From NCBI RefSeq assembly GCF_014863355.1, contig NZ_JACZEP010000007.1, forward strand, positions 124,001-188,000: 64,000 bases of DNA, in the 5' to 3' direction. The position numbers and the translations under genes were made by a program. Positions 26,382 through 34,268 of the stretch are shown piece after piece. Every line of letters starts with the position of its first letter. The stretch's first letter is position 1. The notes under the pieces were generated by a model. That model saw only the letters and a list, made by a program, of their open reading frames with translations. It did no database searches and was not told the DNA's origin. Source of the stretch: Aminobacter carboxidus (GTDB taxonomy: Bacteria; Pseudomonadota; Alphaproteobacteria; Rhizobiales; Rhizobiaceae).

Positions 26382-26412
26382 TTGATCCTCTAGTGGCTAG
26401 AGATTCTAGCAT
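26382..26412 (+). promoter_or_regulatory. MerR-type promoter of zntA with 19-bp spacer
   Basis: TTGATC (-35, 26382-26387), then the perfect dyad CTCTAG-TGG-CTAGAG (26388-26402), then TAGCAT (-10, 26407-26412). The 19-bp spacer is longer than the usual 17 bp. This is the hallmark of promoters that a metal-loaded MerR protein untwists to activate. The start codon of zntA follows 30 bases later. Confidence 0.88.
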
Positions 26413-26441
26413 TGCTTCATAGTGGATTGAAAGGACCTGAA

Positions 26442-28757
26442 ATGAACGATGCCAGCCACGGCAAGACACGTTTCCGCGTTGGCGGCATGGACTGCGCATC
26501 TTGCGCGACCAAGATCGAAAACGCGGTCAGCCGCCTGCCCGGCATCACCGAGGTCGGCATTTCGGTGTCGGCCGGCACGATGATCGTCACCCACCAGGGT
26601 CCCGCCCCCTCCGCCGCCATCTCGAAGCAGGTGAAGGCGCTTGGTTATTCGGTTGCCGAACTGGGCGCCGCACGGACCGCGGAGCCGAAGGCGCATGCCC
26701 ACGAACACGGTCCGAACTGCAGCCACGATCACGCCGGCCGCAACCACAGCCGTGGCGACCACGCCGGTCACGACCATGCAGATCACGATCATTCCGGCCA
26801 CGATCATGGCGACCATGCCGGACACGACCATGGCGCACCGGCAGCGAATGCCGCAGGCGCCGGCCACGACCACGACCACTTCGATCTCGACGACGGCCCG
26901 TGGTGGCGATCGCGCAAGGCTAAGCTGACCATCGCCTGCGGCGCAGCACTTGTCGCCGCCTACGCCATCGGCCAATTGATCCCCCAGGTCGGTCATTGGG
27001 CGTTTCTAGCAGCGCTTGCGGTCGGGCTGGTGCCCGTCGCCCGCCGCGCTTATGCCGGTGCCATATCAGGCACGCCGTTCTCCATCGAGACTTTGATGAC
27101 CATCGCTGCCGTTGGAGCCGTGTTCATCGGCGCGACTGAAGAAGCAACGATGGTCGTGCTGCTGTTTCTCATCGGCGAACTGCTCGAAGGCGTCGCCGCC
27201 CGCCGTGCGCGCGCCAGCATTCGCGGCCTTGCCGACCTCGTCCCCAAGACAGCACTGGTCGAGGAAAGCGGTGCGACCCGCGAAATTGCAGCCGACGCGC
27301 TACAAGTCGGCGCGATCATGCTGGTCCGTCCCGGCGACCGCGTCGCCGCCGACGGTGTCATCATCGACGGCTCCAGCACGCTCGACGAAGCCCCTGTGAC
27401 CGGGGAGAGCGTGCCCAAGTCGAAGACTACAGGCGACGATGTCTTTGCCGGCACCATCAATACCGACGCGGTGCTCAGGGTCCGTGTCACCGCAGCCGCC
27501 GCCGACAACACCATTGCCCGCGTCATCAAGCTGGTCGAGGAGGCGCAGGAGAGCAAGGCGCCGACCGAACGCTTCATCGACCGTTTCTCGCGCTACTACA
27601 CCCCGGCCGTCCTTGTCGTCGGCGCGGTCGTCGCCATGCTGCCGCCGCTCGTTGCCGGCGGTTCGTGGGAAGAATGGATCTACAAGGGCCTCGCCATCCT
27701 GTTGATCGGCTGCCCGTGCGCGCTAGTCATCTCGACGCCCGCAGCGATTGCCGCAGGCCTGTCCGCCGGCGCCCGCCGCGGCCTGCTGCTCAAGGGCGGT
27801 GCCGTGCTCGAAGGCATGCGCCGCGTCACCATGGTCGCGCTCGACAAGACCGGCACGCTGACCGAGGGCAAGCCCAAGGTCACCGACATCATCGGTGTCG
27901 GCCGTCCCGAAGCCAAAGTCTTATCGCTGGCCGCGGCCTTGGAGACGGGCTCCAGCCACCCGCTGGCGCTCGCCATCCTCGGACGCGCCAAAACGGACGG
28001 TGTGCCGATCCCTCCGGCCAATGTCGCCAAGGCCATTGCCGGCAAGGGCGTCACCGCAAAGGTCGGCGGCGAAGACGTGTTCCTCGCCTCGCCCGGCGCT
28101 GCCGACGAAATGGCCGGGCTGTCAGCCGAATTGAAGGGCCAGATCGCCGCCTTCAACGCCGACGGCAAGACAGTCTCGGTGCTGCTGGTCGACAACAAGG
28201 TCGCCGGCATCCTTGCCATGCGCGACGAACCGCGCGCCGATGCCATCGCGGCATTGGCCACCCTCAAGGCCGATGGCATCGCCACCGTCATGCTGACCGG
28301 CGACAACGAGGCCACCGCAAGGGCTATCGGCAAGGGCCTCGGCATCAACGTCCGCGCCGGCCTGATGCCCGACGACAAGCAGCGCATCGTCCGCGAACTG
28401 CAAAAGCAAGGCCAGATCGTCGCCAAGGTCGGTGACGGCATCAACGACGCCCCTGCCCTGGCCGCGGCCGATTTCGGCATCGCCATGGGCGGCGGCACCG
28501 ATGTTGCGCTCGAAACCGCCGACGCCGCGATCCTGCACGGCCGTGTCAGCGACATTCCAGACATGATCGCCTTGTCCAAGTCGGTGATGGGCAACATCGC
28601 CCTGAACATCACCATCGCGCTCGGCCTCAAGGCTGTGTTCCTTGTAACGACCATCATGGGCATCACCGGTCTGTGGCCGGCGATCCTCGCCGACACCGGC
28701 GCGACGGTGCTGGTCACCGCCAACGCCATGCGCCTGCTCGCCTGGCGTGGGCGCTAA
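26442..28757 (+). CDS. zntA: Zn2+/Cd2+/Pb2+-exporting P1B-type ATPase
   Basis: A 771-residue efflux ATPase. An N-terminal HMA domain carries GGMDCASC at about residues 14-21. A His/Asp-rich linker of roughly 60 residues built of HDHAGH-like repeats (26695-26890) follows before the membrane domain. Hallmarks are TGES, the membrane motif GCPCALVIS, the phosphorylation loop DKTGTLTEGK, SSHPLA and GDGINDAPAL. The CPC motif and divergent MerR regulator support export of divalent soft metals. The ATG at 26442 follows AAAGGA. The cadA alternative cannot be excluded by sequence. Confidence 0.94.
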   Translation: MNDASHGKTRFRVGGMDCASCATKIENAVSRLPGITEVGISVSAGTMIVTHQGPAPSAAISKQVKALGYSVAELGAARTAEPKAHAHEHGPNCSHDHAGRNHSRGDHAGHDHADHDHSGHDHGDHAGHDHGAPAANAAGAGHDHDHFDLDDGPWWRSRKAKLTIACGAALVAAYAIGQLIPQVGHWAFLAALAVGLVPVARRAYAGAISGTPFSIETLMTIAAVGAVFIGATEEATMVVLLFLIGELLEGVAARRARASIRGLADLVPKTALVEESGATREIAADALQVGAIMLVRPGDRVAADGVIIDGSSTLDEAPVTGESVPKSKTTGDDVFAGTINTDAVLRVRVTAAAADNTIARVIKLVEEAQESKAPTERFIDRFSRYYTPAVLVVGAVVAMLPPLVAGGSWEEWIYKGLAILLIGCPCALVISTPAAIAAGLSAGARRGLLLKGGAVLEGMRRVTMVALDKTGTLTEGKPKVTDIIGVGRPEAKVLSLAAALETGSSHPLALAILGRAKTDGVPIPPANVAKAIAGKGVTAKVGGEDVFLASPGAADEMAGLSAELKGQIAAFNADGKTVSVLLVDNKVAGILAMRDEPRADAIAALATLKADGIATVMLTGDNEATARAIGKGLGINVRAGLMPDDKQRIVRELQKQGQIVAKVGDGINDAPALAAADFGIAMGGGTDVALETADAAILHGRVSDIPDMIALSKSVMGNIALNITIALGLKAVFLVTTIMGITGLWPAILADTGATVLVTANAMRLLAWRGR

Positions 28758-29182: not shown

Positions 29183-29390
29183 ACTGTCACGAAGGGCCGG
29201 TCCGAACCGGCTCGCGGCATGTAGCAAATCGTTTCCGGGGAAACAAGCGCCCTGTGCGATATTCGTCCATCATTCTTGCATACCCCAGGGGAAGTCGCCT
29301 GCGGCAGGCACCAATCGCCGGCTTTGCGGGCACTGCCTCTGGACGTTTCATCGCCAAGCCGCCATATCAGGTCGACGAACGGACCCCAGA

Positions 29391-30131
29391 ATGACCGAAC
29401 GCAGCCTGATCGCCACGTCGTTTCTCGCCCTTCCCGGCTCAGCACCGGTCGAATGGCGAATCGAACCCGGTCTCACCCCCTATGACCAGGCGCTGGCCTT
29501 CATGGAAGAGCGCGCCGACGCGATTCGCCAAGGCACGTCAGGCGAGATGGTCTGGCTCGTCGAGCACCCACCAATCTACACCGCCGGCACCAGCGCCCAG
29601 GAACAGGATCTCGTCGAGCCTGACCGCTTTCCCGTCTTCAAGACCGGCCGTGGCGGCGAATACACCTATCACGGCCCCGGCCAACGCGTGGCTTATGTCA
29701 TGCTCGACCTCAAGCGTCGGCGCGAAGACGTGCGCGCCTTCGTTGCCGCTCTCGAGGCCTGGATCATTTCGGCACTCGCCGCCTTCAACGTGAAAGGCGA
29801 ACGCCGCGAGGACCGCGTCGGCGTCTGGGTGGTGCGGCCGGACCGTCCGGCCCTGCCCGACGGCTCGCCTGCCGAAGACAAGATCGCTGCCATCGGCATC
29901 CGCCTGCGCCGTTGGGTCAGCTTCCATGGCATCGCCATCAACGTCGAGCCGGAACTCGGCCACTTCTCCGGCATCGTGCCTTGCGGCGTCACCGACCACG
30001 GCGTCACCAGCCTCGTCGACCTCGGCTTGCCGATAACGATGGACGACCTCGACGTCGCGCTCAAGGGGGCCTTCGAGGAGATCTTCGGGCCGGCGGACAT
30101 CGCCCTAGTCCCGGTTCGGAAAACGGCCTGA
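29391..30131 (+). CDS. lipB: Lipoyl(octanoyl) transferase
   Basis: A 246-residue LipB enzyme that moves octanoate from acyl carrier protein to lipoyl domains. It has the [12 protein letters not shown] motif near residues 84-95, the conserved lysine in DKIAAIG and the catalytic cysteine in [15 protein letters not shown]. The ATG at 29391 ([11 protein letters not shown]) is chosen; upstream reading crosses the tRNA. The C-terminus is typical in length. It is the last gene before the rearranged 30.1-31.0 kb interval. Confidence 0.95.
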
Positions 30132-30296
30132 GGCCATCTTCCTGGCGCACCCAAAGGCACGCCCTTCTTCCAGTTAATCGCGCCAATCACCGCGCGCATT
30201 ACGGCGCACTGTCTTCCGCCTCACGCCGGCATCGGGAAAACCCGGTGCCTCACTGTTTCATGGTTGGGAATGCCATCGGCTAGAATGTCCCAACAG

Positions 30297-30314
30297 GCGC
30301 TCAAATCAGAGCGC
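30297..30314. terminator. Stem-loop overlapping the stop codon of the 28-codon ORF
   Basis: GCGCTC-AAATCA-GAGCGC is a perfect 6-bp inverted repeat with the minus-strand TGA stop (30306-30308) in its loop. There is no U-run. It may help end or protect the short minus-strand transcript. Confidence 0.35.
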
Positions 30315-30392
30315 GCCGATCCACATCGCCATGGTGACGAGGAAGGTGCTCATGCAGACCATCGAAATGACATCCTGTACCAGCTCGGTCAT
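30306..30392 (-). CDS. SOS-controlled single-pass membrane micropeptide (28 aa), SidA-like by context
   Basis: The frame encodes 28 residues: a short charged start MTELVQDV, then about 20 almost wholly hydrophobic residues (ISMVCMSTFLVTMAMWIGAL) that could span the membrane, then stop. AGGAG stands 6 bases before the ATG, a very good ribosome site. Three GTTC repeats 11 bp apart (LexA-type boxes) and TTGACA lie just upstream. The short length kept it out of ordinary ORF calls. Caulobacter SidA, a 29-residue SOS-induced membrane protein that inhibits cell division, is a known parallel in size, topology and control; homology is not claimed. Function here is inferred, not shown. Confidence 0.7.
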   Translation of the reverse strand: MTELVQDVISMVCMSTFLVTMAMWIGAL

Positions 30393-30414
30393 CTGTCGCT
30401 CCTGTTTTTAATAT

Positions 30415-30440
30415 GTTCTCCATTTGTTCTATTTCTGTTC
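30415..30440 (-). promoter_or_regulatory. Two overlapping LexA-type SOS boxes (GTTC-N7-GTTC-N7-GTTC)
   Basis: GTTC occurs at 30415, 30426 and 30437, exactly 11 bp apart, read on the minus strand as GAAC-N7-GAAC-N7-GAAC. GTTC-N7-GTTC is the established SOS operator of alphaproteobacteria. The downstream box reads GAACAAATGGAGAAC and the upstream box GAACAGAAATAGAAC, both AT-rich between the repeats as in real sites. They end 23 bases before the micropeptide start. Confidence 0.85.
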
Positions 30441-30443
30441 AGA

Positions 30444-30449
30444 TGTCAA
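30444..30449 (-). promoter_or_regulatory. TTGACA -35 element of micropeptide promoter
   Basis: A perfect minus-strand TTGACA sits 3 bases upstream of the outer SOS box. The spacer and -10 region then fall inside the two boxes, so bound LexA would cover the promoter. The -10 is weak (around ACAAAT). Confidence 0.5.
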
Positions 30450-30646
30450 CGCGCACCATTGCATTCGAGCACAGCCACTCGCCGCAACCGATTCGACAGT
30501 AAATGAAGGGTTTATGCAGGCGAGCGCAGGCCTTCGCCCGTTAACGAAGAGGCGACAGCACCCGACCAGGCAATATGGATAGCGACCAAGCGTAGATTTG
30601 GCCAACTCAAGGCCGAACCTCCCTCCCCACCTGAATTAGCGCAGCG

Positions 30647-30813
30647 GGACGATCTTGCCCTCGGCGAGCGTGACGGGACGGTCCATGCGTCACGCCAGCT
30701 CGTAGTTGTGGGTGCGATCAGCGCCGGTAAGCTCGGCTGCCGCACCAGTGTTGAAAGCGCGTCGAAGACGTAACTCGCGGTCACCGGATCGAGATTGCCG
30801 GTCGGCTCGTCGG
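30647..30813 (-). pseudogene. Decayed copy of the lolD 3' end
   Basis: About 165 bases closely match the last 55 codons of lolD (30955-31120): both have GATCTTGCCCTCGGCGAGCG and, later, GCGTCGAAGAC and ACCGG(A/G)TCGAGATTGCCGGT. Translated fragments read [15 protein letters not shown], as in LolD ([15 protein letters not shown]). Several single-base indels break the frame. No start or Walker A region is present, so it cannot make an ATPase. It lies 139 bases downstream of the intact gene in the same direction. Confidence 0.8.
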
Positions 30814-30951
30814 CTTGCTCGAGCCCTGCTCATTGTGGCGTTCGACGTGCCTTACGAGATGGGCAGCAAACCGCGACCTGCAATGACCGCAGGAGATGTG
30901 ATGCGGACAGAAGCCCACCTCAAAACGCCGTTGATGGAAGAAAGGCAGCCC

Positions 30952-31638
30952 TTACATGGGCACGATCTTGCCCTCGGCGAGCGTGACGCGGCGGTCCATG
31001 CGTCCGGCAAGCTCGTGGTTGTGGGTGGCAATCAGTGCAGCCAGGCCCGATTGGCGCACCAGTGCCGAGAGCGCGTCGAAGACATAACTCGCCGTCACCG
31101 GGTCGAGATTGCCGGTAGGCTCGTCAGCCAGCAGTACCAGCGGCGCATTGGCCACGGCGCGGGCGATCGCCACGCGCTGCTGTTCGCCGCCCGACAGCTC
31201 TGAGGGGCGGTGCTGGGCGCGTTTGCCGATCTTCATGTAGTCGAGCAGCTGTTCTGCCCGCTCGCTCGCCTGGGCCGGCGTAAGTCCCTTCACCAACTGC
31301 GGCATCATCACATTCTCCAAGGCGGAGAATTCGGGCAGCAGGTGATGGAACTGGTAGACGAATCCGACGTCGTTGCGCCGGATGGCAGTGCGCTCATCGT
31401 CCGACAGCCGCCCGCAGGCGCGCCCGTTCAGGAACACGTCTCCAGCATCGGGGCGCTCGAGCAGCCCAGCAGTGTGCAGCAGTGTCGACTTGCCGGCGCC
31501 TGACGGAGCCACCAGCGCCACCATCTCGCCGGCCTTGAGCGAGAAGTTGGCGTTGTTGAGGATCGTCAGCTTGCGCGAGCCCTGCTCATAGTGACGCTCG
31601 ACGCCCTTGAGCTCGATAACGTGCTCGATGCCCATCAT
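30952..31638 (-). CDS. lolD: Lipoprotein-releasing ABC transporter ATP-binding protein
   Basis: A 228-residue ABC ATPase that powers release of lipoproteins from the inner membrane. The Walker A region is [11 protein letters not shown] near residues 44-54, the signature is [14 protein letters not shown], Walker B is LVLLADEP, followed by TGNLD and the switch histidine in IATHNHELA. Two ATGs are adjacent (31638 and 31635); the first overlaps the lolC stop. It is paired with the LolC/E permease directly upstream. Confidence 0.93.
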
Positions 31639-32921
31639 TCATACCTCAGGGCTTCGACCGGATCGAGCGCAGCCGCCCGCCATGCCGGAAACAACGTCGC
31701 CAAAAATGACAGCACCAATGCCATCAGCACGACAGAGACAGTCTCGCTGACGTCCATCTTGGCCGGCAATTGGGACAGGAAATAGAGTTCGGGGTTGAAC
31801 AGCACGGTACCCGACAGCCAGGAGAAGAACTGCCTGATGCGCTCGACATTGAGGCAGATGACCACGCCGAGCAGCACACCCGCAATGGTACCGGTCATGC
31901 CGATGGCAGCACCGGTCATCAGGAAGATGCGCATGACAGCGCCTCGTGTCGCCCCCATCGTGCGCAGGATCGCGATGTCGTGGCCTTTGTCCTTCACCAG
32001 CATGATCAGGCCGGAGATGATGTTGAGCGCGGCCACCAGCACGATCAGCGTCAGGATCATGAACATGACGTTACGCTCGACCTGCAAGGCCGAGAAGAAG
32101 GTCTGGTTGCGCTGGCGCCAGTCGGTCAGGAAGATCGGCCGCTGTGCCGCTTCCTCGACCTTGGTCTTCAGCGCATCGACATCGTCGGGATTGTCGACAT
32201 AGATCTCGATCGAGCCGACCTTGCCTTCCGAATTGAAATAGAGCTGCGACTCGGCGAGCGGCATGAAGATGATCGAACTGTCGTATTCCGACATGCCGAC
32301 CTCAAAGATGCCGGTGACCGGATAGGCCTTGGCGCGCGGTGTCGTGCCCATCGGGGTCACATCGCCGTCGGGCGAAATCAACCGGATGGAATCGCCCAGC
32401 ACCAGGCCCATGTTTTCGGCCATGCGCTTGCCGATGACGACGCCGTCACCAGTGTCGAAGCCGACGATCGAGCCCTGCTTGATGTTGTTGGCGACCAGCG
32501 TCACCTTGCCGAGGTCGCTGCCCCTGATGCCGCGCACCAACGCGCCGGCGCCCGCGCCGACATTGCCCTGGGCCAGCACCTGACCCTCGACCAGCGGGAT
32601 CGCGTATTTGACGCCAGAGACACCGTTGATGCGATCGGCGACGGCGGCATAGTCCTCAAGCGGCGTATCGGTTGCAGTTACGACGAGATGGCCGTTGACG
32701 CCGAGAATGCGGGTCAGGAGCTCGGCGCGAAAGCCGTTCATGACGGCCATCACCACGATCAGCGTGGCGACGCCCAGCATGATGCCGAGGAAAGAGATCG
32801 AAGCGATGACGGAAATCACCGTCTCCTTGCGCTTCGAACGCAGGTAGCGCCACGCCACCATGCGCTCGAACACCGAAAAAGGGCCAGCGCCCGCCGGTTT
32901 CGCCGTCACCGCCTGGTTCAT
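31635..32921 (-). CDS. lolC: Lipoprotein-releasing system permease LolC/LolE
   Basis: A 428-residue permease of the LolC/E family. The N-terminal [20 protein letters not shown] leads to the first membrane helix near residues 38-60, a large periplasmic domain follows to about residue 280, and three C-terminal helices end in [18 protein letters not shown] single LolC/E-type gene with lolD suggests a LolF-like homodimer, as in many alphaproteobacteria. Its start overlaps the proS stop by four bases. Confidence 0.92.
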
Positions 32922-34246
32922 GCCTTGGCGCCCAGCTTGGCCAGAGCTTCAGCCACCGGCAGCGTCAGGCGTTCGCCGGACTTGCGGTTCTTGATCTCGA
33001 CCTCGCCTGCGGCAGCGCCGCGCGGGCCGACGATCACCTGCCAGGGCAGGCCGATCAGGTCGGCGGTGGCGAACTTGCCGCCGGCGCGCTGGTCGGTGTC
33101 GTCATAGAGCACGTCCTTGCCGGCTGCCTCGAACGCCTTGTAAAGCTCGTCGCAGACGCGGTCGCACTCGGCGTCGCCGACCTTCATGTTGATCAGGCCG
33201 ATGTCGAACGGCGCCACCGCTTCCGGCCAGATGATGCCGTTCTCGTCATGGCTGGCCTCGATGATCGCAGCAATCAGGCGGCTCGGGCCGATGCCATAGG
33301 AGCCCATCGACACGAAATGCTCCTTGCCATCGGGGCCCATGACCTTGGCACCCATCGGCTTGGAGTACTTCTCGCCGAAGTGGAAGATGTGCCCGACCTC
33401 GATGCCGCGCGCCGAAACCTTGTCGGCTTCGGGCACTGCGGCCCAGGCGGCCTCGTCATGCATCTCTTCGGTCGCCGCATAAGGCGTCGTCCACTGCTTG
33501 ACGATCCCGTCCATCTCGCCGTCATTGGCGAAGTCGGTCGCTGCACCCGGCACCGGCAAAGCGAGATAGTTGCGGTGGCAGAACACCTGGCTTTCGCCGG
33601 TTTCAGCCAGGATGATGAATTCGTGGCTGAGGTCGCCGCCGATCGGGCCGGTATCGGCGCGCATCGGGATCGCCTGCAGCCCCATCCGTGTGAAGGTGCG
33701 CAGGTAGGAAACGAACATCCTGTTGTAGGCGGCCTTGGCGCCCTCGAAGTCGAGGTCGAAAGAGTAGGCGTCCTTCATCAGGAACTCGCGCGAACGCATC
33801 ACGCCGAAGCGCGGGCGTACCTCGTCGCGGAACTTCCACTGGATGTGATAGAGGTTGAGCGGCAGGTCCTTGTACGACTTGACGTAGGAGCGGAAGATTT
33901 CCGTCACCATCTCTTCATTGGTCGGGCCGAACAGCATGTCGCGCTCGTGCCGGTCCTTGATGCGCAGCATCTCCTTGCCGTAGTCGTCATAGCGGCCGCT
34001 TTCGCGCCACAGGTCGGCTGACTGGATGGTCGGCATCAGGATTTCGAGCGCCCCTGCCCGGTCCTGTTCCTCGCGCACGATGCGGCAGATCTTGTCGAGT
34101 ACACGCTTGCCCAGCGGCAGCCACGAGAAGCTGCCGGCCGCCTGCTGCCTGATCATGCCCGCGCGCAGCATCAGCCGGTGGGAAATGATGTCCGCCTCGC
34201 GGGGATTTTCTTTCAGGATAGGAAGGAAATAGCGCGACAGAAGCAT
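32918..34246 (-). CDS. proS: Prolyl-tRNA synthetase
   Basis: A class II synthetase of 442 residues, the short alphaproteobacterial form without the editing insertion. The N-terminus is [20 protein letters not shown], motif 2 is in [19 protein letters not shown] and motif 3 in [19 protein letters not shown], and the anticodon-binding domain is C-terminal. The ATG at 34246 is preferred because GGAA lies 7 bases upstream and homologues start at this point; an ATG at 34258 (MEHSMLL) is the alternative. It leads the proS-lolC-lolD unit, each pair overlapping by 4 bases. Confidence 0.95.
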
Positions 34247-34268
34247 CGAATGTTCCATGAAAACGGTG

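Follow-up and report, generated by a model that had tools for sequence, protein, structure and literature searches.

In Caulobacter, SidA has been described as a 29-residue inner-membrane protein, induced during the SOS response, which inhibits cell division by binding FtsW and whose action is suppressed by FtsW mutations at A31, F145 and A246 (excerpts of PMC4211646), and loss of lexA has been reported to cause filamentation via sidA (excerpts of PMC12700426). Other SOS-induced membrane peptides, TisB and DinQ, are found in E. coli (PMC8145889 and PMC3567139, both in part), and the Gram-positive inhibitor YneA acts on FtsW and carries an extracellular LysM domain (PMC13396833, in part). Regarding replication, dnaE of C. 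crescentus corresponds to CC1926 (PMC1839093, in part), and a study of multi-chromosome species, including Rhizobiaceae and Brucellaceae, places dnaE among the LexA-regulated genes of alphaproteobacteria (PMC3323433); sidA is not mentioned in its main text. Among the literature matches listed, present as excerpts and including PMC4211646, PMC12700426, PMC13384398, PMC4117421, PMC13396833, PMC9022086, PMC9578287, PMC3323433, PMC1839093 and PMC11514494, no SidA homolog outside Caulobacter is mentioned, the original description of SidA lying outside that scope.

The DNA analyzed here, hereafter the window, is a stretch of 64,000 nucleotides of Aminobacter carboxidus (contig NZ_JACZEP010000007.1, positions 124,001 to 188,000), a genus that replaces the Mesorhizobium implied by an earlier sequence-only reading. 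That reading had singled out a 28-codon minus-strand ORF with a hydrophobic product, preceded by AGGAG, three GTTC repeats and TTGACA, and all these elements are found where it had placed them. The ORF of this predicted SidA-type membrane peptide, MTELVQDVISMVCMSTFLVTMAMWIGAL, is a conserved frame read directly from 30392 to 30306 (30306..30392, minus strand, TGA stop included), and its 28-residue product is hydrophobic from residue 8 onward, as a very short single hydrophobic helix would be. On the same strand, the Shine-Dalgarno-like AGGAG (30399..30403) stands 6 nt 5' of the ATG, a like motif preceding the homologs, and the GTTC repeats at 30415, 30426 and 30437 of the plus strand translate into two overlapping GAAC-N7-GAAC patterns: the predicted LexA box 1, GAACAGAAATAGAAC (30426..30440), whose first GAAC lies 48 nt 5' of the ATG, and the predicted LexA box 2, GAACAAATGGAGAAC (30415..30429). 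TTGACA occupies 30444..30449, immediately 5' of the LexA box, and is to be regarded as -35-like, with no -10 scored, since a consensus scan, which can miss sites, found no sigma-70 promoter on either strand of 30130-30600. By itself, the box pattern is not rare in 64 kb (three in the window for a shuffle mean of 1.88, with at least three in 28 of 100 shuffles), and its significance thus comes from conservation. The third copy, at 26703-26717, falls inside a large P-type ATPase ORF (26412-28757) and is probably due to chance. The window peptide has no match in NCBIfam and a single chance-level match in Pfam (E 0.31, 11.6 bits for a cut-off of 27), and a tblastn search of plasmids and phages returned nothing at E<=1, so that these sets do not point to a mobile origin.

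The ORF is intact in all ten Aminobacter genomes, the window's own counted (E <= 1.2e-11), and at E<=10 the window peptide has matches in 100 of the 199 genomes of the family, those at the top of the list being strong and the weakest at chance level. From the genus and family searches, 37 Rhizobiaceae loci were read in detail. The sequence-only reading had proposed examining whether the frame and both boxes are kept in relatives: the frame is open in all 37 loci, 36 of them have at least one exact box no more than 80 nt from the ATG, and 20, including the ten of the genus, have the overlapping double box. The first base of the box lies 37-52 nt before the ATG, the first GAAC being exactly 48 nt 5' of it in 28 of the 36 boxed loci, and 34 of them have TTGA or TTGC no more than 12 nt 5' of the first box; the sole locus lacking an exact box (L016) has degenerate half sites only. 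Variable sites within the genus are distributed 5/0/16 over codon positions 1/2/3, pN/pS amounts to 0.146 within the genus (45 pairs) and to 0.241 across 36 loci (630 pairs), and all of the 31 distinct close homologs have Q6, D7, V8, S10, F17, W24, I25 and G26. Judged by these substitution patterns, the 28-codon ORF is a conserved coding gene selected at the amino-acid level. Although chance alone would produce the box pattern roughly two times in 64 kb, the fact that 36 of the 37 loci conserve frame, box and spacing, together with the association of box and peptide in 35 families (see below), leaves a chance ORF beside chance GTTC repeats with practically no probability.

Weaker or second matches in Rhizobiaceae (20 loci) include 12 in which a box is followed by the peptide. 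L425, L427, L429, L431, L432 and L434 have none of the tested neighbours and were taken as chance matches rather than family members; neither L435, next to dnaE, nor L439, next to both lolD and dnaE, combines an exact box with an ORF of this type.

The minus strand of the window carries, in this order, proS, lolC/E, lolD and the peptide gene, with lipB convergent. What we take, from sequence and gene order, to be a proS-type gene (32918..34258), the first of the shared cluster, and a lolC/lolE-type permease gene (31635..32921) are followed by the upstream neighbour of the peptide gene, a lolD-type ABC ATPase gene (30952..31638), which matches the LolD profile better than any other gene in the genome (257.7 bits, below the curated cut-off of 307.75); the convergent gene on the plus strand (29388..30131, start codon approximate) is presumably of lipB type. 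Between lolD and the peptide gene, at 30646-30847, lies the remnant of a second lolD, of which 168 nt match the 3' part of the intact adjacent lolD at 85% and 44 nt its 5' part at 86%.

Outside the family, a profile built from the close homologs gave no convincing score in 397 genomes of the order or 385 of the class. Seven borderline matches, one within the family (L044) and L046, L047, L049, L050, L051 and L061, are nevertheless boxed, with the box 46-49 nt before an ORF of 28-32 aa, and all of them lie between lolD and dnaE, which indicates a shared address. The likeness of these first seven distant peptides to the Rhizobiaceae profile is biased, as they were found with it. The LolD family profile was dropped as an anchor for a wider survey because it yielded 150 ABC-type matches, and DnaE was taken instead.

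In the genome that we take to be that of C. vibrioides, recognized through its PopZ sequence (100% match), the FtsW residues at the published positions 31, 145 and 246 are A, F and A, supporting the identity of the genome. The LexA-box pattern occurs 97 times in it versus 82 for the reversed control, so that most of its matches are due to chance; among about 50 of the 97 that were read, one precedes a Shine-Dalgarno-led 29-codon membrane ORF starting with ATG. Two further boxed hydrophobic ORFs, L150 (several possible starts) and L176 (20 codons, TTG start), were dropped for length, start or context. The 29-residue peptide fits SidA, an identification made by features and not by the published sequence. 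Its gene stands in the order proS-lolC/E-lolD-(reverse-strand ORF)-peptide-dnaE, the reverse-strand ORF (L181, 6896-7996) being presumably nucleoside-hydrolase-like. The window peptide gene has the same address, after proS-lolC/E-lolD, with the dnaE side replaced by lipB.

With the N-terminus of Caulobacter DnaE as query, DnaE was matched in 359 of 372 genomes of the class and in 79 of 80 chosen handles of the order, and 160 dnaE-upstream regions were examined. The 90 regions of the class comprise the 30 best-scoring and 60 picked from the listed rows, about one per family. The 79 of the order derive from a consecutive run of 51 handles, roughly one for each family, to which 14 others, mostly with weak profile matches, and 15 Rhizobiaceae, mostly without an earlier peptide match, were added; nine were left out, namely G320 (the same as L050) and, for partial or low matches, G208, G221, G013, G048, G236, G244, G250 and G252, leaving 70. 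Three loci cut by contig ends (L227, L245 and L396) were counted as unboxed. An exact box stands upstream of dnaE in 65 of the 160 regions (21 of 90 in the class, 44 of 70 in the order), and 69 class and 26 order loci have none. Within the 500 nt preceding dnaE (79,202 bp), GAAC-N7-GAAC was counted 69 times, versus twice at 700-1300 nt (93,686 bp), while spacers of N6, N8 and N10 upstream of dnaE gave 2, 3 and 0 matches. Under a single rule for cases and controls (hydropathy 1.5, ATG or GTG start, Shine-Dalgarno required), as distinct from the hydropathy cut-offs of >1.5 and >1.1 under which the class and order sets had been read separately, a short membrane ORF follows in 59 of the 65 boxed regions versus 2 of 93 unboxed ones, control anchors giving 3 of 158 far upstream and 1 of 158 on the reverse strand.

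Some of these loci deserve a separate description. Two boxed class loci (L183 and L184) fall below the hydropathy cut-off and show by eye peptides of 31 and 29 residues; at the boxed order locus L392, where the script found none, MLIRDVLALGSLV... is visible by eye, and L360, L371 and L386, also boxed, have no clear peptide by script or eye. At L360 and L386, the exact LexA box before dnaE with no recognizable peptide possibly reflects loss of the peptide with the box kept. In L422 (1290-1620), a peptide-like ORF, MQRLLLDCGAFVSCSAFVVAVYLWIDGMHVPLV, lies ahead of dnaE behind degenerate half sites only and was counted as unboxed, from which it follows that the exact-box counts are low rather than high. 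In the opposite orientation, GTTC-N7-GTTC was found 12 times in the last 500 nt of the 160 regions (L183-L272, L354-L423) versus once at 700-1300 nt, an excess that perhaps corresponds to extra LexA sites.

Since the peptide precedes dnaE in the dnaE-linked loci surveyed, and dnaE is listed as LexA-regulated in alphaproteobacteria (excerpts of PMC3323433), the ORF could be a leader or cis-regulatory element of the downstream dnaE, with the LexA box serving dnaE. However, in the window and many Rhizobiaceae relatives the place that dnaE has in other lineages is occupied by the convergent lipB, with frame and box nevertheless kept, and selection acts at the amino-acid level, all of which makes such a leader very improbable. 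As the window lineage keeps frame and box without dnaE following, the LexA sites attributed to dnaE could be those of the unannotated peptide gene.

The 59 peptides of the class and order dnaE-upstream sets represent 35 families and share a core, [KRQ]-[DE]-x-x-[AS]-[LF]-x-[SA]-...-F. Counted over 63 rows of 24-47 aa, the window and C. vibrioides peptides included, K/R/Q is found at position 6 in 52, D/E at 7 in 59, A/S at 10 in 51, L/F at 11 in 52, S/A at 13 in 47, F at 17 in 44 and W at 24 in 35. Position 6 is K or R in 44 of the 63 rows and Q in the window lineage, the window peptide having no basic residue; families f174 and f93 fit weakly. Against a profile of 27 distinct Hyphomicrobiales peptides, all found by position and none of them from Rhizobiaceae, the scores are 23.9 bits for C. 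vibrioides and 26.1 bits for the window, and none of 5000 plain or 5000 class-preserving (polar/apolar) shuffles reaches either. The tests were repeated without G254, an earlier profile match (26 peptides; 24.1 bits for C. vibrioides, 23.9 for the window), and without the 14 further handles (22 peptides from the one-per-family handles; 26.2 and 24.2 bits), again with 0 and 0 shuffles for each peptide. When the Rhizobiaceae dnaE-linked peptides were added, C. vibrioides scored 25.2 bits (0 and 1 of 5000 shuffles), the window 28.6 (0 and 0) and three other Caulobacteraceae peptides 27.6 (0 and 0), 14.0 (4 and 20) and 16.6 (0 and 2). Moreover, the C. vibrioides peptide scores 21.9 bits (0 and 0) against 16 class peptides from outside both groups, and in a random-ORF control the best of 178 ORFs reached 9.3 bits versus 25.0 for the window peptide, 4 of the initial 182 having been set aside as family members passed by the filter.

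Other comparisons are less favourable. About half of 5000 shuffles reach the score of the window peptide against a profile of four Caulobacteraceae peptides, 1009 and 2039 of 5000 do so against 20 class peptides from outside its order, and the C. vibrioides peptide is marginal (0.6% / 2.0%) against a mixed profile of Rhizobiaceae and those four sequences. The window peptide being thus not recognized directly by Caulobacteraceae or other class peptides, homology rests on the intermediates, the synteny and the box, and we read the whole as one divergent family in which the Hyphomicrobiales peptides bridge the Caulobacter and window ends. The sequence-only reading had called the peptide analogous to SidA, its homology being yet to be established; this interpretation holds up, its functional half as a prediction, and homology is now well supported by the address, the box-then-ORF layout and the intermediates.

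The genome also encodes lexA with a box of its own, GAACACAACTGGAAC, 66 nt 5' of the lexA ATG, and ftsW, whose product is identical to that of Caulobacter at A31, F145 and A246. As 47% of FtsW positions are conserved anyway, these residues are a weak pointer. Taken together, the data make the ORF probably the SOS-induced Aminobacter ortholog of Caulobacter SidA, a peptide that would block septation, probably through FtsW. The conserved coding frame, the LexA box, the place next to lolD, the family relationship and the presence of lexA and ftsW are established at the sequence level; the induction, translation, membrane insertion, division block and FtsW contact of the window peptide are what we infer. 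In the proposed mechanism, DNA damage would activate RecA and lead to cleavage of LexA, and the two overlapping boxes at the -35 element would be vacated, allowing synthesis of a short mRNA. Its 28-residue product would cross the inner membrane with one helix and, for as long as repair is incomplete and the SOS state lasts, would block the synthesis of septal wall, FtsW being its most likely contact, as it is for SidA.

FtsW as target is the least certain step, which we favour only modestly. An ortholog by descent might have changed its target and stop division or growth not via FtsW but via another wall-synthesis factor (FtsN, FtsI, or the machinery by which Hyphomicrobiales grow at the pole): the C-terminal halves of the Rhizobiaceae and Caulobacteraceae peptides differ, the window lineage has no basic residue at position 6, and the second inhibitor of Caulobacter, DidA, acts on FtsN (excerpts of PMC4211646). 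However, positions 6-17, where the family is best conserved, are shared with the Caulobacter peptide, and the FtsW suppressor positions are conserved, and we deem such a change unlikely. Even less probable, in our opinion, is a toxin like TisB or DinQ, which would be induced by SOS and depolarise the membrane, leading to dormancy instead of a specific division block. Such toxins share with the window peptide the size class, the single hydrophobic helix and the LexA box, but the position and family relationship tie it to the SidA locus, and the class-preserving shuffles place the constraint on a specific core and not on hydrophobicity alone. Furthermore, the absence of any Rfam match in 29500-31700 and of any promoter-like site in 30130-30600 gives no sign of an antisense RNA, bearing in mind that both scans can miss one.

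Returning to the SidA reading, it is probable, albeit with less assurance than the orthology itself, that SidA is an old alphaproteobacterial checkpoint gene, common at least to Hyphomicrobiales and Caulobacteraceae and located in a proS-lolC/E-lolD-sidA-dnaE cluster with one LexA box, and that Rhizobiaceae with the arrangement of the window uncoupled this brake from dnaE. If so, a single SOS operator would release a division brake and possibly also, in genomes that keep the linkage, the replicative polymerase. What has been taken in several species for LexA control of dnaE would then be control of an unannotated sidA, which changes the reading of these sites. Similar tiny genes at the same place in many alphaproteobacteria seem to have gone unnoticed. 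The functional class of the window gene is known, but the gene is a real, widely conserved and apparently unrecognized member, of interest because the family is broad and can be tested. With about 24-47 codons and a predictable location, such a gene is directly testable in many genera, and its natural variants would form a series for mapping the FtsW contact.

Among known systems, TisB and DinQ of E. coli resemble the window peptide in size class and in LexA control, which is predicted in the window, and differ as toxins paired with antisense RNAs, none being seen at the window locus by the two scans, either of which can miss one. The Gram-positive YneA, SosA, ChiZ and DivS are likewise SOS-induced small membrane division inhibitors, a likeness of mode only across other phyla, and YneA continues after its helix into its extracellular LysM domain, whereas the window ORF ends with the helix. 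DidA is, like SidA, a small single-pass division inhibitor from the same organism group, but it is longer (71 aa), is induced by DriD instead of LexA, independently of SOS, and acts on FtsN (PMC4211646, in part). From SidA itself, the window peptide differs in having no basic residue, in its diverged C-terminal half and in not lying beside dnaE in its lineage, whereas it resembles it in length (28 versus 29 aa), in the LexA box close upstream, in the location of its gene after proS-lolC/E-lolD and in a shared core made of [DE]7, A/S10, L/M11, V12, S/C13 and F17.
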